Shown piece by piece: positions 3,301 to 62,372 of a stretch of DNA of 64,000 nucleotides (positions are counted from its first letter, which is position 1; the number at the start of each line of letters is the position of its first letter). The notes beneath the pieces were generated by a model, which was not told the DNA's origin, searched no databases, and worked only from the letters and a program-made list of their open reading frames with translations. The translations under genes and the position numbers were made by a program. The DNA lies in contig JAPTJF010000252.1 in assembly GCA_029339195.1 (NCBI GenBank), positions 1-64,000 of the forward strand, written 5' to 3'. The stretch comes from Micractinium sp. NFX-FRZ. Lineage: Eukaryota; Chlorophyta; Trebouxiophyceae; Chlorellales; Chlorellaceae.

Positions 3301-6120
3301 TGCAGCAGCTGCAGGTGCGTGCTGCTGCTACGGTGCCGGCCGGTTGGCAGGAGCAAGCCAGAGAGCGCTGCTGTTCAGCTGTGGCTGCGCCATTGGGCAG
3401 GAGCATCGCGCTGCTCCTTGTTTTGTCCACAAGTTTTCTCACTGCTTACACATGCTTGTGGGCCTGCCGGTACTGGCTCTGCAGGAGCAAGTCGTGGCAG
3501 CCAGGCAGGACGCGGAGCAGCTGCAGGCGCAGAACGAAGAGCTGCGGCAGGCGCAGCTGGCCAGCAACAGCGCATTCGAGGTGAGGGGTGTGCAAGGGAG
3601 CTGAGCACAGGATCAACCACGTATGTTGCCTGCCTGCTTGAAAATGTGATGGACATGCATGGAGACGGCCATTTGAGCGGGTTGCTCACCAGGCGTGCTT
3701 ACCACTACTTTCCATGCGTGCGCGTGATGCCCTGCGCCACGTGTGAACGTGCTGCCTGCCTGCGCATGCAGCGCCAGGTGGGCGGCGCGGAGGGGTGCAA
3801 CGAAGCGTGCTGACCAGGCATGCAGCCGCCAGGCATGCTCACCTCTGCTTGCTCTGTGTGCGTGTGTGTGCGCGTGCATGTGGTGTGCCCCCTGCAGCGC
3901 CAGGTGGGCGGCCTGGAGGGTGAGCTGGCAGAGGCCCAGGCAGAGCGCGACGCCCTGCGCCAGCAGGTGGCCAAGGCCACAGCCGAGCTGGATGCCCAGC
4001 TGGCAGCCGCGGGGCAGCACCGGCAGCAGATTGCGGCGCTGCAGCAGGCCGAGCGCGACCTGCGGGCAGCGCTGCAGAGCCAGGAGTCGGCGGCTGTGCA
4101 GCAGAGCCGGCAGGTGCGCCGGTGGGGCGGTGCTGGGCATGCTGCTGGGCATGCTGCTGGGCAGGCTAGGGGGCGCCTGCGCCTTTTCTTGCGCCCGTGC
4201 GTGCAGACAGCCACCCATCGCATCCACTGTCCTGCCTCCTCTCCACCCCATCCCTACTAATTTGCAACTCTGTCCTCTCTCTTGCCCGCAGGCTGTCACG
4301 CTGCAGTCCAAGTGTGAGGCGCTGGAGGCACGGGTTGCGCAGGTGGAGGGCGAGCTGGTGGCGTCCAAGCAGCGGGCAGCCGCGGCTGAGGACCGCCTCG
4401 CCAAGTCCGGCAGGTGCGCTCGAGCTTGTGCATGGACGATCTATTTTTCGGCCGCCGGTGTGCGCCTCCTGTGTCTCATATGCTCAATTGTGCTTTTCCC
4501 GGTCATGGCAGGCAGCCCGCCTTCTGTGCGAAGGCAGGCGTGTGGTGCTGCCTGTGCACTCCTGTGGGTGCTTGCCAAGCTAACGTGTTTGGCGCCGTCC
4601 CTGGCACCTCCTCGTCTGCCTGCAGGGCTGGCGGGCCAGCAATACAGGAGGTGGTAGGCGGGCTGCGCTCGGAGCTGCAAGAGAAGGACCTGCAGCTCAT
4701 GCAGGCAAGTTCTTCTTCTGCTGCATGGGATGTGCCCTGCCGAGCGCTAGTATCTGTGCTGCTGCCAGGGATGTGCCCTGCTAAGCGGTGTGGGCAGGGT
4801 GTGCGCAACTTGCTCACCAACAGCCGCTGTGGCGGGGCCTGGTCTGTGTGCGTGTGATCACTCTCCCAGCTTGGCATGCCAGCTGCCCCCCAGCATGTTA
4901 TGCACGTTTGCGTGCTGTGGGCGGCTTTCATGCTGCCATGTGGGTGCGGAGGACGACGGCCTGGTCGGCTGCACTACACCCACTGCTACCCATGCTGATG
5001 TTTTCATGTCCCTGCTTTGCATGCTGCCACGTGGGTGCAGATGCACGAGGACCTGACCCGTGAGCGCGGCAAGGCGCAGGACCTGCAGAAGCAAGTGCTG
5101 GACCAGGTCAGTCCTGCGTGTTGCCTTGCCGCAGGGCCCTTCGATGGGGGGGGGCAGTCCTGGGCGCATCTGTGCTGTTTGGGCATGCCTTGGTCAGGTC
5201 CACTCTCTGCCTGCCCCCTGATCTGGTTGGTGCCCCCTGAATCGTCCCTCTGCCCGCCCCCTGTGCAGGCCATGGAGCTGGATGAGGCGCAGCACGAGGC
5301 TTCCGACGTGTTTGCCCTGCGCCAGCAGCTGGCCAACGCGCAGCAGGCAGAGGCGCACCTGCGCAAGCAGCTGGCCCAGCTGCGGCAGCAGCAGCAGCAG
5401 GCGGCGACCGCCGGCTCTTGGACCCCTGGCGGCGCAGAGGGCGGCGGGCATGACAGCTCCCCGCGCAGCAGCAGCAGCGGGGGGCGCAGCGGCGGCGGCG
5501 GCGGCAGCCCCACTGCATCGCCGCAGCGGGCAGTGCAGATGTCGTCGGGCACAGCGGCTACGCTGCAGCGCCGCTTGGAGGCCACGACCAAGGAGGTGGC
5601 GCTGCTGAAGCAGGAGGTGCGATGCTGGCTGGCCAGATGGGATGGGCGTATGAGCGCCCGTCTACCCTGGTCTGGGATGCCTGGCCGCTTGCTGCTGTGC
5701 CGCTGCCTCTTGCCCTCTGCGCGCACATTGCCCCTGGTGTGCCGCCCGCTGCCATGCTGCCGCCGCTTGCTGTTGCCGACTCTGCTTGGCACCGCCCGTG
5801 ATGTGCTGTGCTGTGCTGTGCTGCTTTTGCCATGCAAACGGTCCAGCTGAGGGAGGACAAGGACAAGCTGCTGGCATGTCACTTCGCAGCCCCCTGCTAT
5901 GCTGCCCCTCGCCATGCTGTGCTGGCTGTTGCTGACCTGGCGGCACGCTGACCTGGCTGTGCAGATGGCTCAGCTGAGGGAGGACAAGGACAAGCTGCGG
6001 GATGAGCTGGAGACTCGGGACTCGGAGGTGCAGCTGCTGCAGGGACAGCTGGTGGTGCTGCGCAACCAGGTGGCCGACGAGCACAACTGGCTCAGCCCGC
6101 TGCCCGACCCCTACCGCTGA
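356..6120 (+). CDS. Large coiled-coil protein with low-complexity N-terminus
   Basis: Twelve exons join in frame to give about 1151 aa: 356-1849, 2046-2213, 2331-2408, 2542-2619, 2760-3314, 3485-3580, 3898-4113, 4292-4413, 4626-4704, 5041-5106, 5269-5616, 5965-6120. Residues 1-490 are Ala/Ser/Gly/Gln-rich and contain a 9-residue repeat (LDGGSSTSR, LEGGSSTNR, LDGGSSTTK). The rest is Gln/Glu/Ala-rich heptad sequence typical of long coiled coils (for example LRMQLLEQKQRCEELEAAL). There is no membrane segment or enzyme motif. Nearly every intron is phase 0 and follows a CAG codon. The intron after 4704 uses a GC donor (GCAAGT). A structural or cytoskeletal role is only inferred from the architecture. 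I do not recognise a specific family. Confidence 0.85.
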
Positions 6121-6763: not shown

Positions 6764-9700
6764 TCAAAACTCCGAGGTGGCGTCACTGCCAAACAGCCGC
6801 TCCCCGCGTGCAAACGCCAGGAAGACGAGGCTGCCGGCCACGCACTGCAGCGCCGAGGCAGCAAAGGCTTGGTACCAGCCAGCCACATGGTCTGCGCCGC
6901 CGGCCCACTGCAGCAGGTAGCCGGTCACCGCCACGCCCACCACGCCTGCCAGCGTGCCCGCAGTGTTGCTGATGCCCCTGCAGGGCGTCAGGCGGGCGGG
7001 GGGGCGGGGCCGGTAGCCCGCGGCTTTCTGTGCTGCCACAGGCACCACCTGCACAGCCTGCGTCCACAGCAAAGCAGCGCATTCTCCCTGCATACTTGCT
7101 TGGCCACATGCTAGCCAGCGCGCACGGCCCTGCAAGCTTCTGGCCCATGCCTGCCTCACATGACCACGCGCTCCCTGAGCAGCACCTGCCCAATTACACA
7201 ATACAAACAGGCACATTTCTGCACTCCGACACACCCACTCACATGACCACCCCAGCAAACTTGGGTGCGATGTCCATGTGGTTCACACTGAACCCGCCCC
7301 GTGAGAAGCCGGCACAGCCCAGCGCCAGGGCAGTGAAGAACACGCCGGTGCCCACAGAGCGCGCGCCTGCAGCAGCGGAGCGGTCGCGAACACAGTGGTG
7401 TGTGTGGCACAGCACGCCGCACGCTGGGAGAGGGCGGCCGAGGGGGGCCTGCCGCGCCTACAGCTGTTGACCACAGCGCGTCTCGTGCAGCACCCAGTCA
7501 ACGCCCCCAATGCCCCAGCATGCTTGACACGCACGCACCAGGCATCAACATGAGGGCCACCGCCGCGGTCCAGAAGCCCGCCGTGTTGACCAGCTTGCGG
7601 CCTGCCGCCACGCTGCGCCGCCGCACATTGATCACCCAATCCCCCGTCCAGCCGCCAGCGTTTGAGGCGGCAAACATGACGAGGTAGGGCAGCGTCTTGA
7701 CGGGGCCCAGGCTGCCCAGGCTGGCGTGCAGCACCTGGGGCGCAAGGAGGCAGGGAGTGGGGCAGGGCAGCAGTGGGGGCACGCCATCGGGACGTCGGGC
7801 GAACGCCGAATTGGCGCGTTGTGCGTGGTCCAACAGTCTGTGCGTGTCGCCAATGCGCACCCAGCGAGCGCATAGCGCGGACGCCCGCAGCCACCCAGCA
7901 AGCTGCATGCAGACACGTGCAGGCAACAAGCACGCAAGCAGGCAGGAAATCAGTGTTCCAATGCACAAGAGCAGTGCCCAGCAGCAGGCAGACCCGTCTG
8001 TCACACTTCCCCACGCCCCCACGTCTCTCCCTAAAACTTCCACCCACCTTGTCGAAATAGGTGGGCAGCCAGTTCATGACGACATAAAAAGCGTAGTGGA
8101 AGGTGAAGTTGTTGATGACGATGGCCCACACTGCAGCAAGCACATGGGAGCAAACCGCATGACAGAAGGGCGGGACACAGCGTTGCTTGCAGGTGTGGCC
8201 AACACAGCACGGCAGAAGGCAGGGCGTGGACGGTGCTCTCCGGCGTGCGCGTGCCCAGGCTGCAGGCACTGGCACATGTACCCGCCCAGCAGGGCGCACC
8301 GGCAGGCTCTCAGTCGCAAGTTGTATTGCGGAACAGAACAATGACACAAACCCACCTGCCGGGTGCATCAGCATGCTGCGCCACGGCGTGGCCACAGGCC
8401 GCCCTTTCTTTGCGTGTCCCTTGCCCCCATCCTCAGCGCTGCCCCCGCCGCCGCCCCCGCCGTTGCCGCCGTCGTGCACCGGCATGGCCGCCGCCGCCGC
8501 CTGACGGCGCACGCTGCGCAGCGTCAGGCGCCACAGCGCCAGCCACGCCAGCCCCAGGCCTCCCACCAGCCGCAGCAGGAAGGCAGGCCCAAAGGCATCG
8601 GCCATTGAGGGCAGCACCAGCATGGCGGCTGCCGAACCCAGGTACATGCCACTGGTGGTGAGGCTGACGGCGCGTGCGCGCTCGGTGGGCGGGATCCAGG
8701 CTGCCAGCACGGTGTGCACGGCAGGGATGAGGAAGCCCTGCGGGCGAAGCAAGGAGGAAGGCCAACAATGGGGTTCGAATGCGCGAGGTACGGTCACAGG
8801 AAGGCATGACGAAGGCCTGCAAACACAGGTGGGCAGTGCTGCGTGCGCACACTGGTTGCGCGCGCGCTGCCAGCACAGCACGCCACACCTTGGCGCACAA
8901 CACAGAGTATGCACGTGTTCAGGCAGCTGCAGCACGCCAGCTGGCAGGCTTGTGGGCGTGGGGCGGAAGACAACATGGGATGCGCACAGCACCGCCGCCT
9001 CACAGCTGGGCGGCAGCTACTGATGGCTGCGCCACGCTGTGCGGTGCTGTGCTGTGCTGTGCTGTGCTGTGCTGTGATGGGAGGTGAGAGGTGAGGCACA
9101 CACACAAGCTGCCGGAGCTCCCACCTGCGCTAGCCCGACGCAGATACGGGCGGCCGCCACGGCGCGCGTGTTGCTTGCCGTGCCCGGCGTGGCCAGGCAG
9201 GCCAGGGACCACAGCGCAAACGACATGCTCAGCATGCGCTCCCCGCCCCAGCGCTGCGCCGCCCAGCCTCCGGGGATCTGCAGCACAGCGCGGGCGTGCA
9301 CGCGCATGGGGTCATCCACCTGGTTGCGGATGATGCACACAGTGGCACAGTGCGCGAGGTGGGAGGCAGGCGCTGTAAGGCGCCACCTCTGGCTGTGTAA
9401 GGTGCACCCTGCAGCCCCTCAGACCGTTACGTGTTGGTTGTTGGGTGCACCCTGCAGCACCCCCCACCCCAGCGCAGCAGCCAGATGAAGAGAGGCAGAC
9501 ACAGCTCAATGCAGAGCGAGTGCATGTAAGAGGTATCACAGCCCAAAAGAAGAGAGCAGGCAGCACTGTGAGACGGGCAGCTGGGGAGAGCCTGTGCAGT
9601 TGGAGACTGGCCCTCACCCACACCTACATGTGTGTGTGCTCGCACCTGTGACACGGCATAGCCCCAGAAGAAGGCGGAGAGCACCGTGCCCTTGACACCC

Positions 9701-10442
9701 TCGTCCACATCAGCCTGCAGCAGGTGGCAGGCATCTGTCATTCTGTGCTAACGGAAGCAGCAGAGAGCACTGCGCCCTGGACTCCCTCGGTTGAAATGTG
9801 CTCGACCGTGCGGGCTTGGGCCGTGTCGGCAGCAGGCAGGCACGCAGGCGCCTTCCGCTTCTTGGCAGCCGCAGCGGCCTGCCACTGGATGGGAATCACC
9901 CACGTTTTATGTCCTAATCTGCATCAAACACGTGACAGGGTATGTCCCAGCCAAGCCATCAACCCATGCTTTGCCACCTGCTGGGTGCTGCACACAGACG
10001 TCAGTGCTGCCCTGCCGCCAAGGCACCCACCTCTTTCGCCATGGCCGTGAATGCGATTGAGAAGCCCACACGCTCCACATACATGCAGAGGGTGGCCAGG
10101 AAGCAGGCCAAGACCACCTGGAAGCGCGGCTCCAGCGACAGGCGCCTGCAGCGCAAGCATGGCAGCAGAAACCAAGGCGGCGAGCGACGGGTGGGCGGGG
10201 CGGAGGTGGCGGCGGCGGTGGAGGTGGCATCGGCTGCATCGCTGCGCTACAAGCTTGCGGCATTGCAACCGCTTCAGTGCTGTCCAATAAATAGTTCGCC
10301 ATGAAGCTCACCGGTGCAGCGGCTTGGTGCTGCCATCACCACGCTGCCCTGGTCTGGTGTCGAGCGCCCCGAATGGCTGCGCACCCGCCGATGAAAACTG
10401 CCACGCAGGAGGGGGCGGGCTGGGCGCCCCGCGGTGCGCCAT
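6764..10442 (-). CDS. PHT4/SLC17-type anion (phosphate) transporter
   Basis: Nine exons, read on the minus strand, give about 488 aa: 10312-10442, 10031-10145, 9646-9714, 9125-9277, 8356-8737, 8048-8130, 7539-7734, 7243-7366, 6764-6977. All phases agree. It is a major facilitator with about 12 hydrophobic spans. Family-typical blocks are CMYVERVGFSIAFTAMAKE, KGTVLSAFFWGYAVSQ, TSGMYLGSAAAML, YVVMNWLPTYFDKV, IAPKFAGVVMGISNTAGTLA. Plant PHT4 proteins carry phosphate or other organic or inorganic anions across plastid or Golgi membranes; the substrate here is unknown. The start at 10442 was chosen because its exon is open and its phase-2 end matches the next exon. The N-terminus (about 44 aa) is Pro-rich and could be a targeting sequence. 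A Gly/Ala-rich cytoplasmic loop sits in the long middle exon. TGTAA follows at 6441-6437. Confidence 0.9.
9044..9075. repeat. (CTGTG)n pentanucleotide repeat
   Basis: Tandem GCTGT units in a transporter intron. Related runs occur at 5804-5822, 57646-57684 and 57796-57822, also intronic. Confidence 0.85.
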
Positions 10443-12635: not shown

Positions 12636-12814
12636 GGTTGCAGCTGCAGGGTTGCAGGGAAGGCCAGGCAGGCACAACACAGGCGGGCTAGCAGAACGGG
12701 CTGGTGCGTGTGCATTGCAGGGCACCAACAGTGGGTTTTAGGGGTGGGCCCGGAACTGCGCCGCCGCTCCTGTTCCCATGCCTGCTCCCTGGAACGATAC
12801 CCAGCGCGGCTGCC

Positions 12815-18378: not shown

Positions 18379-21300
18379 TCAACTTGGCAGCACCGCCCCG
18401 CCCAGCGCGCTGTCTCGCAGCACGCCGTTGAGCAGGTAGAGCCAGAGGTGGTAGGCAGAGGGGCTGCACCAGTGCGTGCACTCATCAGGCTTGTGCGTGT
18501 CCCACAGCGGAACGCTTGCGTTCCACGTCTTCAGGTGCGCGTCAGCCAGGCGCGGTATGAGGTGGGCAATCGCCACGTTGCGCTTGCCGCCTGCCAGCAC
18601 CGTGGGGTCGCCCTTGGCCCAGGCCGCCAGCGGGTTGCACCGAAACGGCTTCTCCCCGCCGTGGTAGGAGCCGTCGAACGCCGTGAAGTGCTGCGGCAGG
18701 GCGAGGAGGGGCAGGGTGAGGGCATGCTGTGAGGTGGGTCACACACACAGAGCTCGAGGCAAAGAGGTGAGCTCAGGCTGGGTGCTCCGACGTGCCTCAA
18801 CCCCCTCCTTCACACCGCCCCAGGCCTCTCGAGGGCAGGCACCTGGGCATTCTCTGCTGGCGGCTGTAATCCCTGCACATGGCTGCCGGTAGCAGCCGGT
18901 GCACCCTCCGCTGCGGCTGCGGTGGCTACATGTGGCCCCCTGGCGGCGGCTGGTGCACACGTCTGCTCGTTGCTCGCCCCTCATCGGCACGTACCCCTCA
19001 TGCAAGAGGGCAGGCAACCGCCTGCTTGCAGGCGTCACTGCACCACAACACCCCAGCTGGCCCCCGCAGCCGCTAGCTGGCCGGCGCAGCCCCCACCTGC
19101 ACTGGTGTGTCCATCCACACGAGGGATGGCAGCCCTGCTCGGTTTTGCTGCCGCCAGGCCGCAAAAGCGGTGAGCTCGGTGACCAGCTGGCTGGCATTGA
19201 GCGGCTTGCCGTCCACTCCGGGCGTGCCGTAGTGCAGCCTGCGCACAGGGCAGGGCAAGCCTCAGGTTATAGGCAGGGGGCCAAGTGGCGGCCATGTGGT
19301 TCAAGTGCAGGGCTGGCAGGCATCAGTGGATGGATGCACGGAGTTTGGGCGGCGCTCCTAGCCAGCGGCTATGCGCACGTGTGCCGCCACGCACACATCT
19401 GCAGACATGCACACACTCTCAAGCTCACACACAATGTCACACGCATGCCATGCAGCCATGCCTGTCAGGCCAGACACTCTGGTGTGCTACAGCCCCACGA
19501 GGCGCCTCTTACAGCACCCCCCTTGCCCACCGACACCTCTGGCCCACCTCACCCTGTGTTAAAAATCATGATGTCATTGGCAAAGTTGGGCACAAGCTTG
19601 GGCAGCTTGGGCAGCACCTGCGCACATGATGCCGGGCGGGCGAGCGGCGGCAGCTTGGGGCGGGGGCAGGCATGCGGGACGCAGCGGGGGAGCGGGGGCG
19701 CGCCACACGGCAGCAGCCTCGCCGCCGGGCCGCAACTGTCCTGGCTGGGGCGGGCCTCGCCGGAACGGGCACCAGGGCTTGCAGGCAGGGCTTTGCGTGT
19801 CGCAGCAACCCACACATGCGTCCTGTCAGCAGGCTTGGTGGCAGGCTTGGCAGCTCGCCCACCAACCCATGCTACGGCCACCAGGCAGCACACTGGTGCC
19901 GACTCTGGACAGTGCACCCACGAGTCAAATCAAAGCAGGCATGGGCTCACCACTTTCGACAGCTTGTCTGCCGAGTCCACCCGCACAGCGCACACCCGCG
20001 TCCCAAGTGCCAGCTCCAAACACAAAGGCGGCACCTTGACCGGCCACGTCACTGTGATCAGCTTCTGGTTCTCCGCCCAGGGGATGGGCGCCCTGCACAG
20101 CACGGCACGGCACAGCAAGCCACGGTCAGCACGGCACAGTCTGCACGGAGTGACGAGCCGTGATGCTACTTTTCACCGTGGGGGTGGGCGGCTGGCGCAG
20201 CGCAGCACGGCGCAGCCCAGTGTGGCATGGCACAACCCGAGGAGCCCCTCATGCGTCCCCACCCCACTCACTTGCGGTGCAACGAGGGCGCAAAGTTGCG
20301 CAGGAAGCACTCTGCTGCATAGTAGTAGTGCCACGTCTGCGAGTCCCCCATGAACCACAGCGTGCGCCCGCGGATGCGCTGGAACAGCTCGCACGGGGTG
20401 AAGGCCTGCAGGCGTATCAAAGAGGACGTAGCATGTAAAACAGGAGACAAGGACATAGGTACGGCACCCTGCGCTGTGCATCCCGCCCAGCGTTCTGCAT
20501 CAGCTCCTGCCCCCTTCTCAAAGCGCCACTCCTACACCCATCTATCCACACTGCGAGCAACCCAATCTTAGGTTCATACCCACCCTGAAGTCAAAGCCGC
20601 TCTGCATCAGCAGCTCTGCCGACTTCTCGGAGCGCCGCTGCCCTGGGTAGAAGGTGTCGCACCGCCGGTCCTCGAAAATGCACACGCCTGACAGCCAGGG
20701 GGCAGTGGGCAAGGGGGCAGGCGATAGGGGGGATCCATCAGGGCAGCGAAGAGGGGCAGCCGGCGCCGCACCCACTGCGGCACGCTACACCATGCAGCGC
20801 GGCCCGCTGCCGAGCGTACGCAGGAGCGGCACCCAACTAGCCAACCCTTCCCTTCACCCACCACTCCACCCGCCACCCACCCACCCACCCATGGCAGCAG
20901 CACAGCACGGCCCCCTCCGTAAAATCCATCCACCCCACTGCAGCAGCATATGCGCTTAGCACAGTACACTGCAACCGGCACCCGCAACACCCGCTGCGGG
21001 GCAGCAGCCCGCCCGCCCGCCCACCCACCCACCGCAGCAGAGCAGGGGCTTCTCGTCTTTGGGGCAGTGGGGGCAGGAGGCCTGCCTGGTGGGCATGCTG
21101 GCGGTGTCGAACAGGAATGGCATGCTGCTGTTACCGTCCCAGCCAGGCGGGCGCTCCACCCTGCCTGCAGGCGGGAGGGCGCGTGCGGTTGCAAGGGGCT
21201 CAATCATCCAGCACAAGAGAGCTCGCGCAGCGCCGAGAGCGGCGCCCCGATTCGCGCTGCACACGGTCGCCTGCGCTTGGCGCTACGCCATGCCGGCACA

Positions 21301-22993: not shown

Positions 22994-23025
<32 letters not shown>

Positions 23026-46342: not shown

Positions 46343-46375
<33 letters not shown>

Positions 46376-46660
46376 TGCTGCCGCTGCTGCCGCTGCTGCT
46401 GCTGCTGCTGCTCCTGCTGCCGCTGCTGCCGCTGCCGCCGGTGCCGCCGCCGCAGGCTGGGCTGCCGCTGCCATCTCTAGTTCCACTACAGCTTGCTTCG
46501 ACTGCTGCTGCTCCGTCCCATTCTCCAGTGGCGGCCTCCATCGTGTGAGAAACGAGGGAGAGGCTTGCAGGGCTGTGAAGCTAAAGGTGAAGAGCGCCGC
46601 GAGAACGACCACCACCGGGAGCTTGTTTCTGCTGCCCGCCATAGGAGATTGCGCAGTCAT
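39108..46660 (-). CDS. Sulfotransferase-SGNH hydrolase fusion protein (B)
   Basis: Fifteen exons give about 783 aa: 46056-46660, 45251-45415, 44675-44778, 44082-44226, 43792-43930, 43391-43479, 43136-43188, 42426-42486, 42038-42130, 41596-41792, 41024-41189, 40607-40748, about 40315-40377, 39660-39843, 39108-39250. The anchor is VVVVLAALFTFSFTALQA, followed by a stem with a long polyAla run (46330-46440). The sulfotransferase half has RGTKMGGTSIS and FARNPYSRAISSF. It is joined in frame, through FPSW/DSKLAAH, to an SGNH domain with WILGDSHGR (about 535) and C-terminal SADGLHAN (DxxH). SGNH and PC-esterase domains remove or transfer acyl groups on glycans. Exon 13 lies in a tandem duplication and its edges are uncertain. 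The alternative is two genes, but no start codon was seen for the second. The ATG at 46642 is an alternative start. Confidence 0.72.
39902..39924. repeat. Interstitial telomeric repeat (TTTAGGG)3 in an intron
   Basis: Three perfect GGGTTTA units lie 59 nt upstream (in gene orientation) of exon 14 of the fusion gene. Confidence 0.9.
40235..40620 (-). repeat. Tandem duplication of exon-12 end plus following intron
   Basis: Two diverged copies of about 190 nt each contain GCGGACGCCAAGGC (or close), a GTGGGA donor and a GACGCAGGGTGGTA segment. One copy holds the true end of exon 12; the other encodes the exon-13 region. Confidence 0.75.
41024..41296 (-). repeat. Duplicated exon 11 of the fusion gene
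   Basis: A second copy of the exon start (TFDKEVEASPNSYHNASW) at 41226-41296 precedes the used copy (TFDKDVETFPKFYHNASW) at about 41189. Both have GCGCAG acceptors. The upstream copy lacks a GT donor. Confidence 0.8.
41467..41530. repeat. Short minisatellite, about 12-nt unit
   Basis: Repeated GGGCCACATGTT / GGGGCACATGTC units in an intron of the fusion gene. Confidence 0.75.
43556..43835 (-). repeat. Three copies of the exon-5 end with GC donor
   Basis: Diverged copies at 43556-43610 and 43663-43715 match the true exon-5 end at 43787-43835 (LEDDFQ plus the GCAAGC donor). Confidence 0.75.
45399..45712 (-). repeat. Four tandem copies around the exon-2 acceptor
   Basis: Units starting near 45399, 45503, 45582 and 45684 share GCCGCGCCACCTGCACGTGG-like sequence with AGATCA after it. 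The first contains the acceptor of exon 2 of the fusion gene. Confidence 0.8.
46330..46440 (-). repeat. GCN-repeat tract coding polyalanine
   Basis: GCTGCTGCT-type repeats encode about 40 alanines broken by single Gly residues in the stem of the fusion protein. Confidence 0.85.
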
Positions 46661-47203: not shown

Positions 47204-50200
47204 TCATCGCGCCACCTCCACCCGAACAGCGCTCCCCAGCCGGCTGTCGCGCAGCACACCGTTGAGCAGGTACAGCCACGTATGGTAGGCCGACGGCTGG
47301 CAGTAGTGGCTGCACTCTCCCGGCAGGTGCATGTCCCACAGCGGCACTGTAGCATTGTATATGCGCAGGTGGGCATCCGCCAGGCGAGGGATGATGGGTG
47401 CCACCGCCATGTTGCGCCTTGTGCCCGCCGCCACTGCGCGGTCGCCGTCGTACCACGCCTTCAGCCACTGGCACTTGAAGGGGCGGTGCTGGAATCCAGG
47501 GAAGGTGCCCTCGTGGGTCGCAAAGTGCTGCAGAGGGGACAAGGTGGGGTGGGGGCTGAGGACCAGGGCAGGCGGACGATTGCGGGGCGGGTGCCCAGGC
47601 CAGGGCAAGGGAGGCCTCCCCTGGGGGGGCTGCGCTGCTGTGCATCACAGGCAGCGCGACTCGGGTGGTGCACACACACATACACACGCATGCAGCGTAT
47701 GCTCAGCGTGGCACACAGCTGGATCCTGCCTGCTGCCTCACCCCCCCGCTCACACCGCCCCCTACAGCGCCCAGCTTGCGCAGCAGCGTCCCACTTGCAC
47801 ACCAGACGGGCCACTTGCAGGCCCGCCCGCCTGCCACGCCTGCACCCCTGTGTCCCGCCCGCCCGCCCACTGGCAAGCAGGCAAGTAATCCACCAATCCA
47901 CAAGCTTGGGGTCAAACCAAGCTGCCCCATGACGCTGGCCCCCCACCCATGTCCACCCAACCCCAGGGCGCAGCCTCTGCCATCCTGGATCACCGCCCCA
48001 CCCTGCTGGTCACCATGCCTTCAACCGTGGCTCGAGCCTTGGCAGCAGCCATCAATGCAGCGACCAGCAACCAGAAATCACCCAAGCAAGACGCTGTCTG
48101 CTAAGCACGCAGCCAAGCTCAACCCGCTGCTACGCAGCAGCCAGCAATGCAGCGACCAGCAACCAGCAACCAACCCAGCAGGACGTTGTCCACCACTAAA
48201 ACACGCAGCCCAGCCCACCTGGGGCCCGGTGTCCACCCACACAAAGCGGGGCAGGCGTGCCTTGTACCGCTGCCGCCACGCTGCCAGCGCTGTTAGCTCT
48301 GCCACGTACCGCGGCCCAGGGGGCTTGGGCAGGTCATACTCGGGGTAGTGCAGCCTGCAAGGGATGGGCAAGCAAAGGACAACAAGTTGAAAAGGGAGGC
48401 CAGGCTCTGCCACGCAACCTGCGCCCAAGGGCGTCGGGAAGACCAGAACACCTGGGGCAGTGCAGCATGTGCGGGGGCCCTTTATTTCTAAGCAGCATTG
48501 CAGTACACACGCACCGTAGCTCAACAAAGGGTCACAGGGTTGGGGCACCACTTCTGCTGGGTGTCCCGCACCCTTGGGCGCAGGCAGCGCGGCATGGGCG
48601 GGCGGGCGGGCCGGCGCATGTGCACCATTGGTTGGCAGCAGCACATCAGCACACTCACCCTGTGTTAAACACCAAGATGTCGTTTGCAAAGTTGGGCACC
48701 AGCATGGCAAGGCGGGGCAGCACCTTGTTGTGTGCCACCCCGGCATGGTCCACTCGCACGGCGCACACGCGCGTGCCGTGGACCAGGTTGAGGCACATGG
48801 GGGCGCCCACCCATTCGACCATCTTCAGCTTCAGGTTTTCCACGGGAGCTACGGCTGGCCTGCACGGCGCAGCAGCGGAAGGGTTCTTTCGAAACTGCGT
48901 GCCATTGGCGTCAGCCAGCAGCAGCAGCGGCGGCAGCAGCAGCAGCAGCAAGCTGCAGCATAGCGCGGCGTCGGCGCGGCTCACGTGCGGCGCAGCGAGG
49001 GCGCAAACTCTCGCAGGAAGCACTCTGCCGCGTAGAACAGGTTCCACGTCTGCGAGTCCCCCATGAACCACAGCGTGCGCCCGCGGATGCGCTGGAACAG
49101 CTCGCACGGCGTGAAGGCCTGCGGGCACGGCACGTGGGCGGGCAGATAAGTGGCACAGGCGGTTCGTCCGGTCGGCGTGCCTGCCCGCCTGCTTCTGGAG
49201 ACCGGCAGTTTGTCCAGTCGGCATGCCTGCTTCTGGAGGCCGGCAACCGCATGTCTGCGTGCCATGCCCTGTGCACCCTGCCGGCAGCCCGGTCCGCCCC
49301 ACGTAAGAGACGCTCTGTCAGCCCCTGAAGTTTTGTGTTCTGCCCCTGCCCCTTGCCCGGCACTCATGTCCTGTTCAAGCAGCGGCTCAACCACATTCCC
49401 TCGGCAGTGTCCCCTTCCCTCCCCTTTTGGCATCTGCCTTGGCTGCCATCCAGGGCAGCCCCCACCCGCCCACCCGACGCTCACCAGCAAGCAGCACCCA
49501 CCTGCAGCTTGAAGCCGCGCCGCATGAGCCGCTGCGCCTCAGCCTCCGACTTGTTCTGCCCAGGGTATAGCGCCCTGCAAAGCTGCTTCTCAAACTGGCA
49601 CACCCCGCAGCAGTGCACCTCGTGCTTGCCGCTCTGGCAGTGCTTGCAGGCCGCCTCCCTGGGCGGCATGCTGTCCACGTCAAACAAGAAGGGCAGGGCA
49701 TCGGCCGACGGGTCGCCCGGAAGCTGCACGGAACCTGCGCAGCAGGAGGATGGAAGGTGTGGGGCGGGGCAGGCTGTCAATGGGCACACAGGAATGGGCA
49801 GGCCTTGAGCAGGCAGCTGTCGCCAGGTGGCTGCACCGGCCCCTGCACGGCAGGCGGGGGCGGGGGCAGGGCGGTGGCAGCTGCAGGGCGGGGGAGGCAG
49901 ACCGGGGAGGCGGATGGTGGGGCAGCACGGTGCCTCGGGGTGCGAGCACCGCGCACCAGGTGGCTGGGTGGGTGCTGCGGTCCTGCACTTGCTGTGCTGC
50001 ACAAGCTCAGCCACCCCAACCAGCACCCGCCGTACAAGCCACCGGGTTGAGATGCAACGACGCCCGCTCATGCCACGCAGCATGCAGTGCTGCCTTGCTG
50101 ACAGGGCCGCCTGCTAGGACTCACCGTCTGCTAGCACTGCGCAGCGCGAGTGTGGCGTGCGGAAGGCGCGTGGAGCGCTGCCAGCAGCGGCTGCCCACTC

Positions 50201-50968: not shown

Positions 50969-53900
50969 CTATCGCAGGCCAAGGGTGGCGCCTGGCGGTG
51001 CCTGCCCTGCCACACCCGCTTGCGACGGGCCAGCTGCTGCTACCTCGCCAGCTGCCCGCACGCCGGTTGGTGCAACAACGGGCGCCGGTCCAACTGGCGT
51101 GGGTGCCTCGGCTGCTGCCGCTGCCGCCGCCGCCGGCCGCTGTCTGTCCCCTCTTTCCTCTGCCGCGTCCTCCGCAGCGTGTACTGCCACATAGTTCCCC
51201 AGCCGCTCGTCCCGCAGCAGTCCATTGAGCAGGAAGAGCCAGTGCTGGTAGGCGGAGGGGTGGCAGAAGTGCGTGCATTCCCCTGCGGTAGCAGCGGTGG
51301 AGGGCAGGCACAATGTTGGAGTCCCTTGTTGGAGGGACGACCCCTGGCTGTCAGCAGTGCTTGCCCCACGCGCCCCGCACCGTCGTCACTGTGCCTCCTG
51401 CCTCCTGCCCGCCCCACCAAGCCAGGGAGGATCTACGCGGCACGCTGGCGGTACACACACGCAGGCGGGCCTCCACACACTCCGCTATCCTGCCGCCCCC
51501 GCTTTGCCTGCTGCCCCTCGCTTGGGTGGCAGCCTCACCCTGGCCAGCGCCCAACCCGCTGGCTGCACTGGTGTCGTACTGCACTGTACTACACACGCAC
51601 GCTTGCGCAGCTCCCAACCGCTGCGTGCAGGACGCAACTGCCACGGGCGCATCTCCTGAACACACCCACCGTGGCAATCAGTGCCTGGCCCGTCCGCCTT
51701 GCCCACCCAAGTCCCCACCACCCACCTGGCCAGTGGTGCTCCCACAGCGGCACGCTGGCGTTGTACACACGCAAGTACGCATCCGCCAGCTGCGGTACAA
51801 GTGGCGCCACCGGTGCGTTGAAGGGGCCGCCAGCTGTCACTGCAAAGTCGCCGTCATACCAGGCCCGGAGCGGGCGGCAGGTGAAGCGCTGCGTGCCGCC
51901 CGGCCAGGAGCCGTCGGAGGTGTTGAAGTGCTGCAACGGAGAGGGTTTGAAGGCATGAATGCTCATGAAGACGAAACAAGTGGTGTGCGGCACGCATGAC
52001 AGCGTATGGTATTGGCACAGCATGGCACATGAGGCGGTGGGGGGAGGCAGCATGCTGCCCTGGCACACACGCAGGGCCATCAAGTGACCATCGCTGCAGG
52101 CCAGGCTGCCTTACACCAAGCCTGCCGCGGCAGTTGCCATTATTGCGTCCAGGGGAAACACGGGCCAGGAGCAGCAACGGCTACCGCTTGCAGGGCCAGG
52201 CTGCCTCACACCAAGCCCGCATCAAGCCCACCTGTGCCGGGGTGTCCATCCACACCATTTGAGGCAGCTCGGCCGCATGCCGCCGCCGCCACTTGGCCAG
52301 GCCTACCAGCCCCTGCACCAGAAGGCTTTGGTTGGCCGGCACGCCGCCCTCTCCGGGCTTGTGGAAGTGCAGCCTGCAGCATAAGCAGAGGAGGGAGGCA
52401 GAAGACGCAGGCAGCCCCAGAGCGTGGGGTTGAGGACTCCAGCATTTGGGGCAGTAAGCGGCGAGGCAGCAATCGGGCGCGTTCGCCTAACGTGGGGAAG
52501 TGCAGCCGGCAACATTGTGTGCTTGGTTGGCCGGCCGGGCGGGGCTGCGCTGCTGTGGGCACCCAGAGCGCTTGCGTGGATCTCAGGGGCAGAGGATTCC
52601 CGCCCTGGCGAGCCCGCAAGCAGGGCATCCCCTCAGGGTTGTGTGCACATGCGCAGCGCCCCCAGGTAACCCCTCTGTTCCTTCCCTTCCCTTTTCCCCC
52701 GCTTTCTCTTCCCACTGACGCCCAAACCCTTCCCTCACCCAAAGTTGAGCACCACCAGGTCGCGCTTGAAGTTGGGTGCGCGCGCCAGCAGCTGGGGCAG
52801 CACCTGCACTAACCAGGCAGAGGTTTGACTTTGTGTGGAGAAGCCAGGAAGGGACCAGCTCAGGAAGGGACCAGCTAGGGAGCGACCAGCTGGTACAGAC
52901 CAGCACGTGCCCCACTGCGTGAGCACATGAGCAGAAGCCAGAGCCGTGGCTCGGCTTAGCAGGGCGGGCTCGGGAGTTGCTGATCCGTGCTGATGAGCAT
53001 TGCAAGGTTGGTGAGTGCCGAATCTGTGCCCAACCGTGTGCGCCATGCAACCGGGGCAACCCAGCACATGAACCTACTACGTAAACCCTAACCCTAACCC
53101 TAAACCCTACTTGACACGCCTCACCGTGTCTGCCATGCGCAGGGGGCGGTACAGGCGTATGCCGCACACGCGAGTCCCCAGCGCTAGATCCAAGCAGAGG
53201 GGCGGGATCTCGGGCGGCGGCCGGGTGACGAGCTTCAAGTTTTCGGCTTCCGGTGTCAGCGCAGGCCTGCGGGCGGCGGGCACCAGCCAGCACACAGGTT
53301 TGGGCGCCGGCTTGCAGCACAGGGAGGGACAGGTGCCTGCTCAGCCAGCCCATGCAGTGCACGTGTGGGCCTGGCAGGCTGCAGTGCCCAGGCACGAACG
53401 CCCCACGGCTGCCCTGCAGCAAGCCTCTGTGTCCCACCACCACATTAAAGGGCATGATGAGATGCTGCCGGCGCCACCCGTCATTGCCCTGAGGCCCGCA
53501 CGCACGTGCGGCGCAGCGAGGGCGCAAACTCTCGCAGGAAGCACTCTGCCGCGTAGAACAGGTTCCACGTCTGGGAATCCCCCATGAACCACAGCGTGCG
53601 CCCGCGGATGCGCTGGAACAGCTCGCACGGCGTGAAGTCCTGCAGGGGAGACACGGGGGGAATGGGACGGGGAGATGGATGGAAGCACCCTCCCTGCCGG
53701 CAGTGGGCACACGTGGTGCAGGGACACGGGGTGGGGGCGCTGGTCAAGGCATGCATGCTGTGGTCGTGCGCGACCTGGCCAGGCATGCTGACGCCCCTGC
53801 CACCCTCCTGTACTGCCCAGCCGTACCCCTCCCTTGCTTGCACTCCACCCTCTCCTCATCTTGTTGCTGGTTTGAAGGGAGCAGCGGCGAGGTGGGGGGT

Positions 53901-55011
53901 CTGTGTTGCACTCTGTTTGCGGGGATCAGACTGTAAATCCCCAATCCCCACAAAACAAAAGCAAAGCCTCACCTGCATCTGGGGATCCATCCCCAGCAGG
54001 AGCTTTGCTGCAGCCTGAGTCCGGTTTTGCCCTGGGAACAGGTCGTCGCAGCGGCGGGTAGTGAAGACGCACACGCCTGCAAAGTGCACGGGGGCCAGCA
54101 ACCACAGCAGGCAAGCCATGGCTCAGCAGCTTAGCAGGCGAGTTTGCACAGCTGGCGTGGTGCCCGAATCGTGCTGCAGCACAGCGGGCCCTGACCCATT
54201 CAGGCGTATATGGGGCATGCAGCCAAATGGCCAGCTGATGCAGCTTCGAGCAGCCCCTGTCGCACCGCAGCAGGTGGGCAGCTTGCGGCTCTCGTCTGGC
54301 GGGCAGTGGGAGCAGGCTTCCCGGCGGCCGGGCATTGTCGAGGTGTCGAACAGAAAGGGCAAGCTGGCAGAGGCCCGCGCGGGGGAGAGCAGGCGCACCG
54401 AGCCTGCAGGCAGCCCCCAGCACGGCGGGGTGAGGGCACTGGATCGGAGAGGGAGCAGGGCTTGCCGACTTGCATGACGGGTACAGGCTGTGCTCAGGCA
54501 GGCAGCAGCTGGCTGAAAGCGCATAGGCTGGCAGCCGGCTGAGGCTCACCATAGGGCATTAGGCAGGCACATCTGTAACTTGCACAAGGCACGCGACAAG
54601 GCGCAGAGTTGTGCACAGGCCTGGGGACAAGGCAGGCACATCTGATGGGCACCCAAGGTAAGCAAGGCAGGCAGTTGGCTCACCATTCGTGAGGACCTGG
54701 CAGCGTGAGTGTGGGGTCTGGAATGTCAGTCCTGCCTTTGGTATAATGAAAGGTCTGGGCGGAAGGGGAGGCGGAGGCCCCGTCGATGAGCTGCGCGGTG
54801 TCGGCCTAGCCCTCAAGCTTGGCGGCAGGCTGGGTGGAGGCGTCGGCAGCACCGGCGGCGCGGGACCAATAACACTGGCACTGCCCAGCGGGCGGTCCTT
54901 GCAGTCGCCCGCGTCGCCCAGAAGTTTCCAAAGTATGCCGAGCACCGCCAGCTGCAGCGCGACAAGCAGGGCCTGCCTTCGCAAGTCACGCCGCAGTTTG
55001 AGTGGCGCCAT
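50969..55011 (-). CDS. PC-esterase/TBL-like membrane protein, copy 3
   Basis: Nine exons (54684-55011, 54266-54403, 53973-54076, 53506-53639, 53125-53266, 52739-52803, 52232-52373, 51726-51930, 50969-51282) join in frame to 523 aa. The anchor is ALLVALQLAVLGILWKLL (about 13-30), then a Pro-rich stem. Catalytic blocks are LWFMGDSQTW and GECTHFC. Five exons have the same lengths as in copy 1 (104, 134, 142, 65, 142 nt). An intron at 51283-51725 splits WP/GECTHFC, where copies 1 and 2 are uninterrupted. A telomeric repeat lies 15 nt past the donor of the intron at 52804-53124. The C-terminus carries an extra Ala/Pro-rich tail of about 70 aa absent from the paralogues. Confidence 0.87.
53082..53110. 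repeat. Interstitial telomeric repeat in PC-esterase 3 intron
   Basis: TAAACCCTAACCCTAACCC followed by TAAACCCTAC. It mixes CCCTAAA and CCCTAA units and ends about 15 nt from the splice donor at 53124. Confidence 0.88.
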
Positions 55012-55397: not shown

Positions 55398-58300
55398 CTA
55401 CCCATGCTGTTGTGCCTGCCGCCGCTCTGCCGCAAGGTGCCGCTTCACTGCATCCACCCGAGCTGCGCTGCCAAAGCTCACGGGGGGCCCCCACTCTGGC
55501 CGCGCCAGGCACAGCACCTGGCCGGGCCGGCGCGGCAGCAGCACCAGCTTCCAAACGAGGGAGAAGCGGGGCCGGCCCTCGGCAGCGGCTGCACGCGCGC
55601 AGGCAGCAAGCAGGGGAGGTGGGTGGGCAGGCTTGTAAGGAGGCAGGCTGGCGGGGATGGCTGGAGTCGGGGCTCGAGCCAAATGGCAAGCAAACGGTGC
55701 ATCTGCTATGCTGAGGTCAATGTGGGTGTGTGGGCGTGTTGGTGCAAGCTGCAGGCAGGGGTGGGCCAAGGCCAGGCGGCACTTGCAGAGCAAGCAAGCG
55801 CGCATGCAGCACCCAGCACCGAGCATCCAGCACCCAGCTCACAGGAGGGTGGCGAGACGCGGTGCATGATGTCTTGATCAAACAGAACCGCACGGCCGGG
55901 GCGCGGCGCCACAAAGATGCCTGCGAGGCAGGGGCAGGGGCAGGGAGGAGAGCAGGACATTCATGCAGCTACAGCGACGCACAGACTGGGCTGCTGGCAG
56001 GGGCGGCGACAAATGCAGGCCACCTGTCTGCAGCTGTCGGAGGCACGCCTGGTTCAAATGTGGGGCCACCCATCCATGCACCCACCCACCTGTGTCCGTC
56101 TGGCCATCCAGGAGGAGCGTGTCGGCGCCCCACTCCCGCTGCCACTGGTCGTTCAGGTAGAGCAGCAGGGAGACGAGCAGGGGCTTGCCAGGCTCGCCGT
56201 TGAAGTAGTCGCCATAGGCAACTGCTGGGAGGGGATGTGAGGAAAGTAAAGGATACTTCCATCACAAGCACAGCCATTTTCGAGGGGTAATTATTTGTTG
56301 AGCCATAACTTGGGAGAAAGTGCTGTTCGGGTGAGCGGCAAACTTGGTTGGTGGTTTGCACAGTGCAGGCAGCGGAGGGAGCGGGGCCCTTGGGTAATAG
56401 GCGGCTGCATGGGTCTGGCAGGCAGGTAGGCGGGCAGGGCATCCACAGGCAGGCGAGGACATGCACAAGCATGTGGCGTGGGGAGGCAGGCAAGAAGGCG
56501 GGACATTCAAAGGCATCGAGGCAGTCAGTCCGGCAGGCAGGCGGACAGGAGGCAGGCAGGCCAGGTGGCGCACCGTTCCAGGGGCTGCCGTCTGGGAAGC
56601 TCGTGGGGTCGGCATCTACGTGGAACCTGCGCCCAGGAAGAAGTACGTATTACGTAACCAAATTACGAAGGCAGCGGAAGGCAGATCTGCCGAGAAGCTG
56701 CAGTGTTGCCGAGAAGCTGCCGCCAGATGAGCAAGGAGGGTGACACGCAGCACCAGCGACAGCAGCAAGACGTGTGCAGCAGCAGTGGCGACATCAGCAA
56801 CAGCGGTGCGGGCACACAACGGGGACAGCATGGTGAAGTTCCATATAGCAGCGGCATGAGCATCTGCCTGTTTCACAGCTGGCACAGCCCCAAGCAGGTG
56901 CATTTGTTGAGGCTGCTGCCCAGGCAGCACCTGAAGGTGTCCCCGGCAACGGCGGCATTGGCCACAAAGCAGGCGCAGTCCACGCCGGCCTCGCCGCTGC
57001 TGCCGCCGGCGCCGCCGCCCTCGCCGCCGCCGCCGTCATCCACACGGCTGCGCTTGGCTGGCGGGGGAGCCCACTGCGAGCTGGCGTCCCCCCGCCCCTG
57101 CTGCCCCTGCTGCTGGTTATGCTGGCCATGCTGCTGCTGTTGCTGCCCCTGCTGCTGGCCATGCTGCGCAGCCGGCGGCTGCTGGGTGCGCAGCGGAGCC
57201 GCCTCTCCCTCCCTCTGGGGGCTCTGCTCCTGCTGCCCCTGCTGCTGCTGCTGCTGGACACACTCCTGCCCTTGGGCGCCGTGCTGCTGCTGCAGCTGAA
57301 TCGCGTCCGAGGGCAGGTGGGCAATGTCGCACTCTGGGTACAGCTTGCACAGGCGGGCATGCACCTCCTGCATGCATGCAGGGGGGAGGCGGGGAAGAAG
57401 CAGCGGTTGCACGTGGAGGCAGCAGAGGTTGCACAGGGAAGCAGCCGAGGGTGCACAGCAGGCGTGCAGGCCCAGCACATGAGATGAAGACAATTGGGAA
57501 CTAGGGGGTGGGTGAGAGGGCATGAGAGGGGGCGCCAAGCCGGGCAAGAGCGGCATCGGCCAGGGGACACAGCATCCAGTCACAGTGTAGTGCGGCCCGA
57601 CAGCTGTCCCCCTCCGCATCACTCGTATCGCTGGGCCGCTTGGACACAGCACAGCACAGCACGGCACAGCACAGCACAGCACAGAAGTGAAGCAGCCAAA
57701 CAGCGCCCACGCAACGCCAGCTGCCATGCGCGAACACACCTGCATGGCATGCAGCCGCCCCTCTGCCAGCTCATGCAGCACGCTCGGTTTGAGGCACAGC
57801 ACAGCACAGCACAGCACAGCACCACGCACCTGCATGGCGGGCAGCCGCCCCTCTGCCAGCTCACGCAGCACGTGCTGCTTCACGCCCCACGTGGGTGCTG
57901 CCCCCGCCATGTCTGTCGTCCGCCGCTCCCACAGATCAGGCGGCAGCTCAAGCGGCGCATACCCCTCTTCACTGCCATCGCCGCTGTCGCCCGCTTGCTG
58001 CCGACACTGCTCGCTGCTACGGCCGTTGTGCAGGCCGTTGCCCGCGGGGGCAGCAAGGCCCGCTGCAGGAGTGCCGGTGCCGTTCTCGGCACAGGCAGCA
58101 GGAGTGCCGGTGCCGTGCAGCAGGAAGGCGAGCAGTTGCCGGCGGGTGGCATCGTCAATGAAGTCGTCAATCACAACTGCGGGCACGGTAGTACAAAGGC
58201 AATGCTTGATTGGCAACAGCAGCAGCACTTGACACGGGGCGAGTGCCTTGCAGGCTGGGGCCAAACTAAGCTGTTGGGGGCGGTGCATTGCCCCAGCCAC

Positions 58301-59479: not shown

Positions 59480-62372
59480 ATGCCGACAAAGCAACCCTGT
59501 GGAAGAGGTGAGCAAGCGAGGCAGCGTATCCCGCCAACTTCGGTGTGCAACGTGCCGTGTTTTGTGGGAGGGCCTGCCTCCTGCCTGCATGTTAAAGCAA
59601 GCACAGCAGTGCTGCTGCTGCAGGCGGGGCACTGAACAATGCAGACCAAGGCTCGTGGGCCACCGCCGCTGGCAGGCTGCCCGGCCGCCGGCGCCGCGTC
59701 CCGCTGGCCGTGGCGCCGCTGGCGTGCCTACCTTTCATTCTGGTTTTTGCCCTCTGGCGTCGTGGCTTCACGGAAAAGCTGGCGCAGCAGCTGCGCAGCG
59801 CCGGCAGCGAGGCGTTTCCAAACGGCGGTGGCCCCCACGCACAGCATGACGTGCATGGCAGCACTGGTAGCGCGGAGTTGGGTGCTGGGTGCTACGATCA
59901 CCCTCCAACCCACAAGTACCCCAACGTAGCCTCTGCGGAGCTGCTGCCATTTCTCATACGGCGGCGGGCGCAACAGAAGCTGGAGCAGCGGTGGGGCGTG
60001 GCACCGCTGCTGTCGCCGCGGCCGCTGCCAGAGGGAAGCCAGATGCGCATCCCACGCATCCTGCACCACGGTGGGTCCCCGCCCCTCCTCCCCTCTCCCT
60101 CCCACCCCTCCTCCCCTCTCCCCGCCGCACCTGCCCTGCCCCGCACCTGCCCTGGTCTTGCATGTCCTGCCAACACCCTGAAGTCGCAGAGCTCCCAGCC
60201 TGGGATGCTTGAGCGCCGCCGGTGCCTGGTGCATCTGGCGTGCCCCCTCCCCTCCCTGAGCACATTTCGCAGCAAAGCAAGCATGCATGCCCGTGCCCAG
60301 CTGCCGGGCCGTGCACGCCTACCTGAGCAGCCGTGAGCTGTGCAAGCGCTTGCCCCCTGCAGTGTCCTTCCCCACTGTTGACGCCTTCCTGGCAAAAGCC
60401 GGCGCGGCCGGGAGCAGCACCCAGGCGGCGTGGGCGGAGGGCTGCCGCCGCATGGTGCGCGGGCGGGCGGGGCAGCGGGGCGCGGGGGTGCCTTGCTAGC
60501 ATCCCCCGCTTGCGTCCTCCGGCAGGAGATCACAAAGCCCTGGAAGCAGGCATGCACAGTTGCTCTATTCATGGTATGGCCATGCCAAGAGTACTCCAAG
60601 ACGCTCGCGTCAGGCACAAGCATCCCCCTCCTCGGCACACGCACAGCTGACGCGCCCTCTGACCGCCCTGCCCCACCCCCATCCCCCCTGTAACGCAGCA
60701 CCCCGACTGGCAGTACATGTTCTGGGACTGGGACTCTGCCGTGGAGTTGGTCAAGACGGTGAGCTCGGTTTGGTGGTGTGCAAGCTTCTGTGTGTTGTGT
60801 GGGTGGGAAGCAGACAGGGAGGGGCCTGTTGCGGGGGCAGTACCGGTGGGCTCTGCTGTTGGTCGGTGACCCTGGATTCTCTGTTGGGAGGCAGGCAGGG
60901 AGGGACGAGTTGCAGTGCAGTACAGTTGTACTTGCACCCACCCTCACAACCACTGCCCTCCCTCCCTCCCTTCCCTGCAGTACTACCCAGAGCACCTCAC
61001 CATGTTTGACAGCTTCGACCTCGTGATCAAGAAGGCGGACGCCATCCGCATCTTCATCATGCACTCCTTTGGGGGTGGGTGGCGCTGAGCTGGCGGGGCG
61101 CTGGCGCTGGGGGGCTGCCCCGGGCTGCGCTGCTCGGCATGCTGTGCTGTTTGCTGGGGACACACCGCAGCAAACCCGCATGCACACACTGAGCAACGGC
61201 ATCGCCGCCCAAGCAGTCGGCCTTTGCTCGGCCCCACTCTGCTGCAGCCTTCGCATGCCGCACCCCCAAACCCCGGGTTCGCCAGCGCCGTGCATGGGAC
61301 GGGGCGGCGCGGGCTCTGGAACCACCAACGTCCCTGTTCAACCTGGCTTTCACTCGACTGTGCCCGAACCCAACCAACCCCATGCAGGGGCACCCAGGGG
61401 CCATGCACACGTGGAGCTGCATTCTCTCCTTGCCCCTGCTGCTGGCCAAGGGTGCCGCTCGTGCTGGCGCTTGCCATCCCTCCCCCACCCCACAACATTT
61501 GCCTGCAGGTCTGTTGTTGGACCCAGGACGTCGAGTGCTTTGTGCCGCACCTCTCCTATACCCTGCTCTCCCCCCCATGCCCGCCCTCAGGCCTGTATTT
61601 GGACCAAGACGTCGAGTGTTTTGTGCCTGTGGACCGATGGCTCAGCGGCTACGACGTCGTGCTGCAGGTGGGCTGGCCAGCTGGCCAGACTGCATCTGGC
61701 GGGGGTGCCTGCCGTGTGTTGCACAGAGCATGCACGCGCTGGGGCCGCGCAGCATGGCGCTGCAGGTCGCCTGGCCAATCTGGCTGGGGTGCGTGCCGTG
61801 TGATGCACAGAGCATGCACGCGCTGGGGCCGCGCAGTACGGCGGTGCAGGCGGGCTGGCCAGTCCATCACCCTGATTGGTTATGGTGTGTGTGTGTGTGT
61901 GTGTTTGATGGTGCAGAACCCGGGGCCCACAAACGGCATCATGGCCAGCGTCCCCGGCCACCCCCTGTGGGCGGCCGTCCTGCAAGAGATGCGGCGGCGG
62001 TGGCGGGACGATCCACACATGGAAACTGTTGTGGAGGCCACGGGTGCGCAGGGCCTGGAACTCGTGCATCAACACATGTCTGCGGTGTTCACGGCCCATC
62101 TGCCGTCTCCCAGCCCGCCACCGTTCTCATTTACGCTGCGTGCTGTGCTGCCTGCAACGTTGCAGGGCCGGGCCTCATGTCTTCCGTGTTCAAGGATTTG
62201 GAGGGGGTGGCGGCGCGGCCAGGGCAGAAGGACGAGTGGGCGGGGGAGTTCGACATCTGGGGCACGAAAGCCAGGGTGCGGCGGGCGCATGTGTGCAGTA
62301 GGGGCGCTGTGCCGTGCAGGCGTGTGGTGGAGGGAAGGAGCTTGTGTATGGGCGTGCGATGTGTGTGTTGTG

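Follow-up and report, generated by a model that had tools for sequence, protein, structure and literature searches.

Diverged copies of exon edges within introns of the green alga Micractinium sp. NFX-FRZ are consistent with intron lengthening by short-range tandem duplication

We found that introns of the green alga Micractinium sp. NFX-FRZ often contain diverged copies of the exon edges that border them, and on balance we favor the reading that recurrent short-range tandem duplication across exon edges lengthens these introns. The window is a 64,000-nt stretch of contig JAPTJF010000252.1 (C252; 65% GC) from an assembly of 66 Mb in 838 contigs; together with 20 other 10-kb stretches (L002–L021), it makes up 264 kb of nuclear DNA, or 0.4% of the genome. 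Genes were predicted with a self-training finder trained on the analysed DNA itself, which predicted 15 genes with 95 introns for the window and, over the 264 kb, 63 genes of at least 240 coding nt with 309 introns; 59 of these genes have introns.

For each intron, we compared the last and first 60 exon nt with the intron itself on the same strand, using a score of at least 32 as the main threshold. The 5' edge was copied in 26 of the 309 introns and the 3' edge in 36, with either edge copied in 56, compared with 2 of 3090 dinucleotide-shuffled introns. Length-matched introns of other genes yielded copies in 0.05% and 0.03% of comparisons (5' and 3' edges; n = 6062 each), introns elsewhere in the same gene in 0.11% at both edges (n = 1864 each), and the reverse complement in 0/309 and 1/309. 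A census of local direct repeats, in whose detection gene models play no part, kept 95 repeats after a low-complexity filter dropped 152 of 247, whereas null pairing of unrelated stretches kept 2 (of 11). Comparing introns with their own flanking exons against shuffled controls, as the original prediction had proposed for these copies, thus gave a clear excess when extended to 264 kb, and its claim that they are too regular for chance holds (56/309 introns versus 2/3090 shuffles; 95 local repeats versus 2). Copied introns numbered 24 of 95 in the window and 32 of 214 in the other 20 stretches, so the edge copies are a feature of the genome.

When exon edges of up to 90 nt were used, 66 edges in 59 of the 309 introns reached the threshold, spread over 26 of the 59 intron-bearing genes, and copied introns were clustered by gene (permutation p = 0.0005). 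The gene with the most copied introns of any sampled was that for eEF3 in L014 (contig C340:10001–20000), with 10 of its 15 predicted introns affected; contig C411 probably carries another eEF3-like gene. Despite the significant clustering, no property common to the copy-rich genes (eEF3, both sulfotransferases, and the At4g37920-like gene) was identified. Within the window, 9 of 15 genes carried copies at a score of at least 32, 10 at 28 or above, and 13 at 24 or above, a score at which 85 of 3090 shuffled introns also passed. The prediction of at least ten affected window genes was therefore right about the phenomenon but slightly high in its count at the main threshold, and most of the genes it named were recovered, except the transporter at 6764–9741 (best score 24) and the PC-esterase-like gene at 51589–54119 (best score 26), both in the chance range. 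Its outermost examples stood: 3767–3794 copies 3893–3920, and 61694–61861 is an 84-nt tandem repeat. The copies in the window are as follows (lags in nt):

3767–3794, plus strand: copy of 3' exon edge (original 3893–3920; intron 3581–3897, coiled-coil gene; lag 126; CAG kept)
5833–5874, plus strand: copy of 3' exon edge (original 5960–6001; intron 5617–5964; lag 127; exon identity 0.97)
20491–20530, minus strand: copy of 5' exon edge (intron 20406–20583, LysM/PC-esterase-like gene; lag 107; identity 0.82; place derived)
24405–24453, plus strand: copy of 3' exon edge (intron 24105–24511, methyltransferase 1; lag 110; identity 0.79; place derived)
26862–26890, plus strand: copy of 3' exon edge (original 26955–26983; sulfotransferase 1; lag 93)
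27008–27304, plus strand: 5' exon edge and two tandem copies, with donor and intron head (full-unit array, unit about 97–106; exon columns 0.91, intron columns 0.82)
27521–27613, plus strand: copy of 5' exon edge with donor (original 27418–27509; lag 103)
28286–28332, plus strand: copy of 5' exon edge with GTGAGTC (original 28118–28164; lag 168)
28694–28728, plus strand: copy of 3' exon edge with CTGCAG (original 28785–28819; lag 91)
28986–29028, plus strand: copy of 5' exon edge (original 28872–28914; intron 28935–29123; lag 114)
29890–29989, plus strand: copies of 3' exon edge (original up to 30129; intron 29566–30082; lag 145 with score 42, and a weaker one at 255 with score 29)
32098–32124, minus strand: copy of 3' exon edge (original 32020–32046; methyltransferase 2; lag 78; identity 0.96)
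34326–34357, minus strand: copy of 5' exon edge (original 34443–34474; At4g37920-like gene; lag 117)
34895–34930, minus strand: copy of 3' exon edge (original 34809–34844; lag 86)
35357–35379, minus strand: copy of 3' exon edge (original 35289–35311; lag 68; identity 0.96)
35902–35952, minus strand: copy of 3' exon edge (original 35788–35838; lag 114)
36586–36651, minus strand: copy of 3' exon edge (original 36474–36538; lag 112)
37053–37265, minus strand: full-unit tandem duplication across an exon edge (lag 96)
40402–40434, minus strand: copy of 5' exon edge (original 40598–40630; lag 196; identity 0.96)
41235–41299, minus strand: copy of 3' exon edge with GCGCAG (original 41133–41197; lag 102)
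42527–42547, minus strand: copy of 3' exon edge (intron 42487–43135; lag 61 with score 32, and a weaker one at 175 with score 26; place derived)
43533–43827, minus strand: full-unit array of a 5' exon edge plus two copies (at lags of 125 and 230; identity 0.97 over exon and 0.80 over intron columns)
44357–44407, minus strand: copy of 3' exon edge (original 44168–44217; lag 190; identity 0.78; place derived)
45494–45704, minus strand: copies of 3' exon edge (sulfotransferase 2; lags 105 and 285)
57734–57782, minus strand: copy of 5' exon edge with GTGTGT (original 57824–57872; 2OG oxygenase; lag 90; identity 0.93; no similarity on the intron side)
61506–61546, plus strand: copy of 3' exon edge (original 61588–61627; glycosyltransferase gene; lag 82)
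61694–61861, plus strand: 84-nt tandem repeat in the intron after that of 61506–61546 (2 copies, 89% matches; a donor-edge remnant per unit, judged by eye)

Spacing between successive copies had a median of 109 nt (interquartile range 97–124, with further copies counted from a score of at least 24) and a preferred distance of 100–115 nt, and the census lags showed a main peak at 95–115 nt (26 repeats) with a small second bump at 195–235 nt (9). Copies occurred at both 5' and 3' edges and sometimes in arrays; one eEF3 intron held two extra 5'-edge and two extra 3'-edge copies. A further copy was found for 21 of the 66 edges at a score of at least 24, where some may be chance matches given the 85 shuffled introns passing, and for 15 of those at 32 or above. 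By place, the 95 census repeats comprised 38 intron/junction-spanning, 15 exon/intron, 19 intron/intron, 11 intergenic, 5 exon/intergenic, 3 exon/exon, and 4 other repeats, with some of the "intergenic" ones in L014 probably part of exons that the gene finder missed. Nine intron-internal repeats sat in introns without edge copies, so the process is seemingly not limited to edges, and the preference for edges may largely be one of visibility.

The original prediction had offered these duplications as either creating or lengthening introns, and our results support lengthening with no visible creation. Median intron length rose from 259 nt without copies (n = 250) to 354.5 nt with one edge copied (n = 52) and 587 nt with both (n = 7; p = 5e-9), so that copied introns were longer in median by about 95 and 330 nt, respectively, and subtracting the array span left a median of 222 nt. 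Lengthening also agrees with the 12 census pairs that repeat over a full unit. If introns had been created by duplication of an AG/GT-containing exon segment, the copy would lie one intron length away, but the corresponding whole-intron signature was found in 0/295 introns (exon tail versus intron tail) and 1/295 (intron head versus exon head) at a score of at least 24, and in none by either test at 28 or above. None of the 69 listed copies had a lag beyond 0.72 of the intron length. Intron ends compared with each other, a comparison bearing on intron gain in staggered-break repair of the Daphnia type and covering direct repeats of at least about 12 nt, showed no excess similarity.

Once formed, the copies decay much like neutral, non-coding sequence. 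Over 73 alignments scoring at least 30, mismatches at the three codon positions numbered 84, 104, and 128 (about 875 sites per position), and single-base gaps made up 35 of the 48. Length classes modulo three (27/17/22) showed no preference for threes, and the reading frame was not kept in a frame test for duplicated alternative exons. At codon positions 1 and 2, the per-site change from AT to GC was twice that from GC to AT (0.103 versus 0.052), toward intron composition. The splice dinucleotide was intact in 35 of 42 copies reaching to within 2 nt of the edge, and the identity profile along the copies was near flat, as in simulated decay, and we therefore rejected constraint on their exon-edge end. 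The youngest copies showed a mild, unexplained excess of synonymous differences (17 of 28). Identity of the copied exon part ranged from 0.76 to 1.00, in keeping with the predicted many stages of decay, though not with a single simple clock, as exon-side identity was only weakly tied to intron-side similarity (Spearman 0.24, p = 0.048).

Under the tandem-duplication reading, short-range duplications with a preferred unit of about 75–135 nt would recur in this genome, and one that falls across an edge would copy the exon end, the splice site, and the adjoining intron together. Such boundary-spanning direct repeats were present: 10 of the 12 full-unit census pairs cross an exon edge, with a mean identity of 0.887 in the exon and 0.816 in the intron (Wilcoxon p = 0.02), so that the intron had diverged about 1.6 times as much as the exon, in line with an exon side largely held by selection. 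The exon-proximal splice site presumably stays in use, leaving splicing choice unaffected, and the extra edge would be removed with the intron and so escape selection acting on the protein. Once retired, this edge would decay neutrally, each event adding about 100 nt to the intron and repeated events building arrays. Edges would stand out because the exon copy is kept constant by selection and remains a recognizable template, while intron–intron copies lose similarity faster. A candidate for the underlying DNA process is the repair of breaks or the filling-in of staggered ones.

Several observations weigh against this reading, at least in its plainest form. A further 43 exon/intron pairs, with the same exon identity as the full-unit pairs (mean 0.889), extended a median of 5 columns into the intron (at most 11 in 37 of the 43, 19–26 in four, and 100 and 153 in two), and with exon/exon and exon/intergenic pairs included, the median over 54 pairs was 4 columns. 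The adjoining intron is missing from most copies, which plain tandem duplication alone does not explain; insertion of filler with random target-site duplication was rejected, as the extension is too uniformly short. In simulations of neutral duplication (5' edges only, with indel sizes assumed), copies with an exon identity of at least 0.93 gave significant intron-side similarity in 87–94% of cases, compared with 11 of 24 observed, and z exceeded 10 in 39–44%, compared with 1 of 66; a higher intron rate did not recover how shallowly this similarity depends on exon identity. Two eEF3 arrays had a farther copy that was more exon-like (0.95 and 0.97) than the nearer (0.89), and the best full-unit edge pairs reached 0.93 (a 46-nt unit) and 0.89, with no very young one seen. 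The two pair classes, which match in exon identity and share much or hardly any intron similarity, the eEF3 order, the weak tie between the two sides, and the failure of plain decay in simulation would all suit an exon-limited process, in which the edge up to the splice site is copied or refreshed onto intron positions about 105 nt apart. This could proceed by gene conversion from the exon onto old, decayed copies, where old tandem units would give the register, the exon part would be kept young, and the intron part would diverge, or by RNA/cDNA copying; we give it a minor share of our belief. The nearer copy is the more exon-like in several other arrays, conversion between DNA copies should homogenize the intron parts as well, and splice dinucleotides (35/42) would not be copied from a spliced-RNA template. 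Copies crossing an exon–exon junction occurred in 3/309 introns versus 2/1545 controls (Fisher p = 0.035), but by eye two of the alignments are a 3' edge copy plus chance bases and the third is gapped and ambiguous, so we rejected spliced-cDNA insertion as a general cause. It seems doubtful that exon edges are copied or re-copied to the splice site on a register of about 105 nt with splicing setting the copy boundary; if true, such splicing-bounded copying would transfer information from exon to intron in a large share of this alga's introns.

The same shortage of intron similarity might instead reflect uneven mutation, with intron heads and tails, often rich in G or pyrimidines and prone to slippage, diverging after ordinary tandem duplications so much faster that the exon part alone stays alignable. 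Intron flanks often carry G-runs, pyrimidine runs, and microsatellites, and a 3–4-fold intron rate brings detectable intron similarity to 0.31–0.40, close to the observed 0.36. We nevertheless find this explanation unlikely, as it predicts a steep fall with exon identity (from 0.54–0.74 to 0.07–0.09) where we observed 0.46, 0.38, and 0.24, and z above 10 in 12–18% where we observed 1 of 66, and the full-unit pairs show only a 1.6-fold ratio. It is quite improbable that the copies are functional and under selection, as alternative exons or as decoy or regulatory splice sites: many resemble complete splice sites and the youngest differ mostly synonymously, but splice dinucleotides disappear about as fast as other parts of the copy, the majority of gaps shift the frame, older copies show weak codon-position bias, and composition moves toward intron GC. 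Judged from coordinates and exon lengths, the copies also mostly differ between the paralogous sulfotransferase introns. Least credible of all is an artefact of gene prediction or of false assembly duplication at divergent haplotypes. False haplotype joins could account for a spacing close to the length of a read and for similar exons being flanked by different introns, but the copies carry nonsynonymous changes (8 of 16 differences in the youngest group without intron similarity) and 1-nt gaps, unlike alleles, the census is independent of gene models, and the exons of two genes are backed by homologous proteins.

Predicted introns had the consensus CAG/GTGAG at the donor and TGCAG/G at the acceptor, and GC donors occurred in about 7% of the 309. 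Eight of the nine splice junctions of the At4g37920-like gene lie in gap-free alignment with algal homologues (by eye), and the ninth falls in the unconserved N terminus. Its protein is nearest, among named relatives, to those of Micractinium sp. CCAP 211/92 (82% identical) and Chlorella ohadii (74%), and the eEF3 protein matches a metagenome protein at 91% and those of C. ohadii and C. sorokiniana at 79%; judged by such protein matches, the window appears to belong near Chlorellaceae. A Pfam scan of seven window proteins supported a glycosyltransferase, a 2OG oxygenase, two sulfotransferases, a methyltransferase, LysM, and an MFS transporter, with PC-esterase slightly under the cutoff. The model at 39622–46474 is probably two genes joined, and the eEF3 model ends early relative to full-length relatives of about 1120 residues.

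Paralogous genes offered further observations. The methyltransferase paralogues at 22843–24987 and 30665–33196 share one near-identical 253-nt exon, while their other exons differ more and their introns are mostly hard to align, which suggests recent exon-level gene conversion; the tail of the methyltransferase intron 32049–32330 is common to the paralogue. For other paralogue pairs, blastn alignments covered exons with no more than 20 nt of intron and little else. The sulfotransferase intron 26635–26949 has no predicted counterpart in the paralogue at 39622–46474 (a 165-nt exon versus 78 + 90 nt) and could represent a gain or a loss that postdates the duplication. A 134-nt PC-esterase-like exon (20262–20412, 48982–49138, 53496–53659) is 87–94% identical among window genes and matches contigs C21, C184, and C41 at 86–90%, above other exons. 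Within an intron stretch at about 53860–53970, 49–70 nt match contigs C262, C702, C144, and C4 at 80–88%.

Introners are dispersed related sequences that bring recurrent intron change across a genome. In contrast, the intron parts of eight algal edges matched their own introns alone when searched genome-wide (very common words skipped), and so do not resemble inserted elements. Matches to other places in the 264 kb were found for 70 of the 309 introns, nearly all of them short or low-complexity apart from paralogue pairs (judged by eye). The search for a common dispersed repeat, which the original prediction had named as a possible refutation, found none, and we rejected an introner or transposon origin given the own-intron-only matches and the low-complexity nature of the others.

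The closest parallel comes from a potato RdRp gene, where a local tandem duplication over an intron–exon boundary produced one new intron, as shown by phylogeny, and carried the putative branch site, pyrimidine tract, 3' splice site, and exon start (PMC4974935). In the alga, an existing intron instead encloses the copied edge; this is the case in 56–59 of 309 introns, involves both 5' and 3' edges, and includes arrays. Rogers-type gain proceeds by tandem duplication of an AGGT-containing exon segment, for example in ATP2A1 (PMC3443670, PMC4974935), and similarly leaves duplicated exon sequence bearing a splice site in an intron; there, however, the intron equals one duplication unit, a pattern found in 0/295 algal introns at a score of at least 28. 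A study of mouse and human cells reported that breaks with overhangs of about 50 nt give small tandem duplications when their ends are joined (PMC8355091), and these homology-independent events are a possible DNA process for the alga's unit of about 105 nt. We found no report of equally pervasive edge copies in the literature searched, of which coverage was partial, and nothing specific for algae. The frequency, spacing, arrays, and edge-limited class appear to be new here. The unit of about 105 nt and copies bounded by splice sites call for a specific DNA process. Intron growth, usually inferred between species, is readable copy by copy within this one genome, in about 1 in 5–6 introns, and the genome could thus directly test how tandem duplication builds introns and whether new ones arise.

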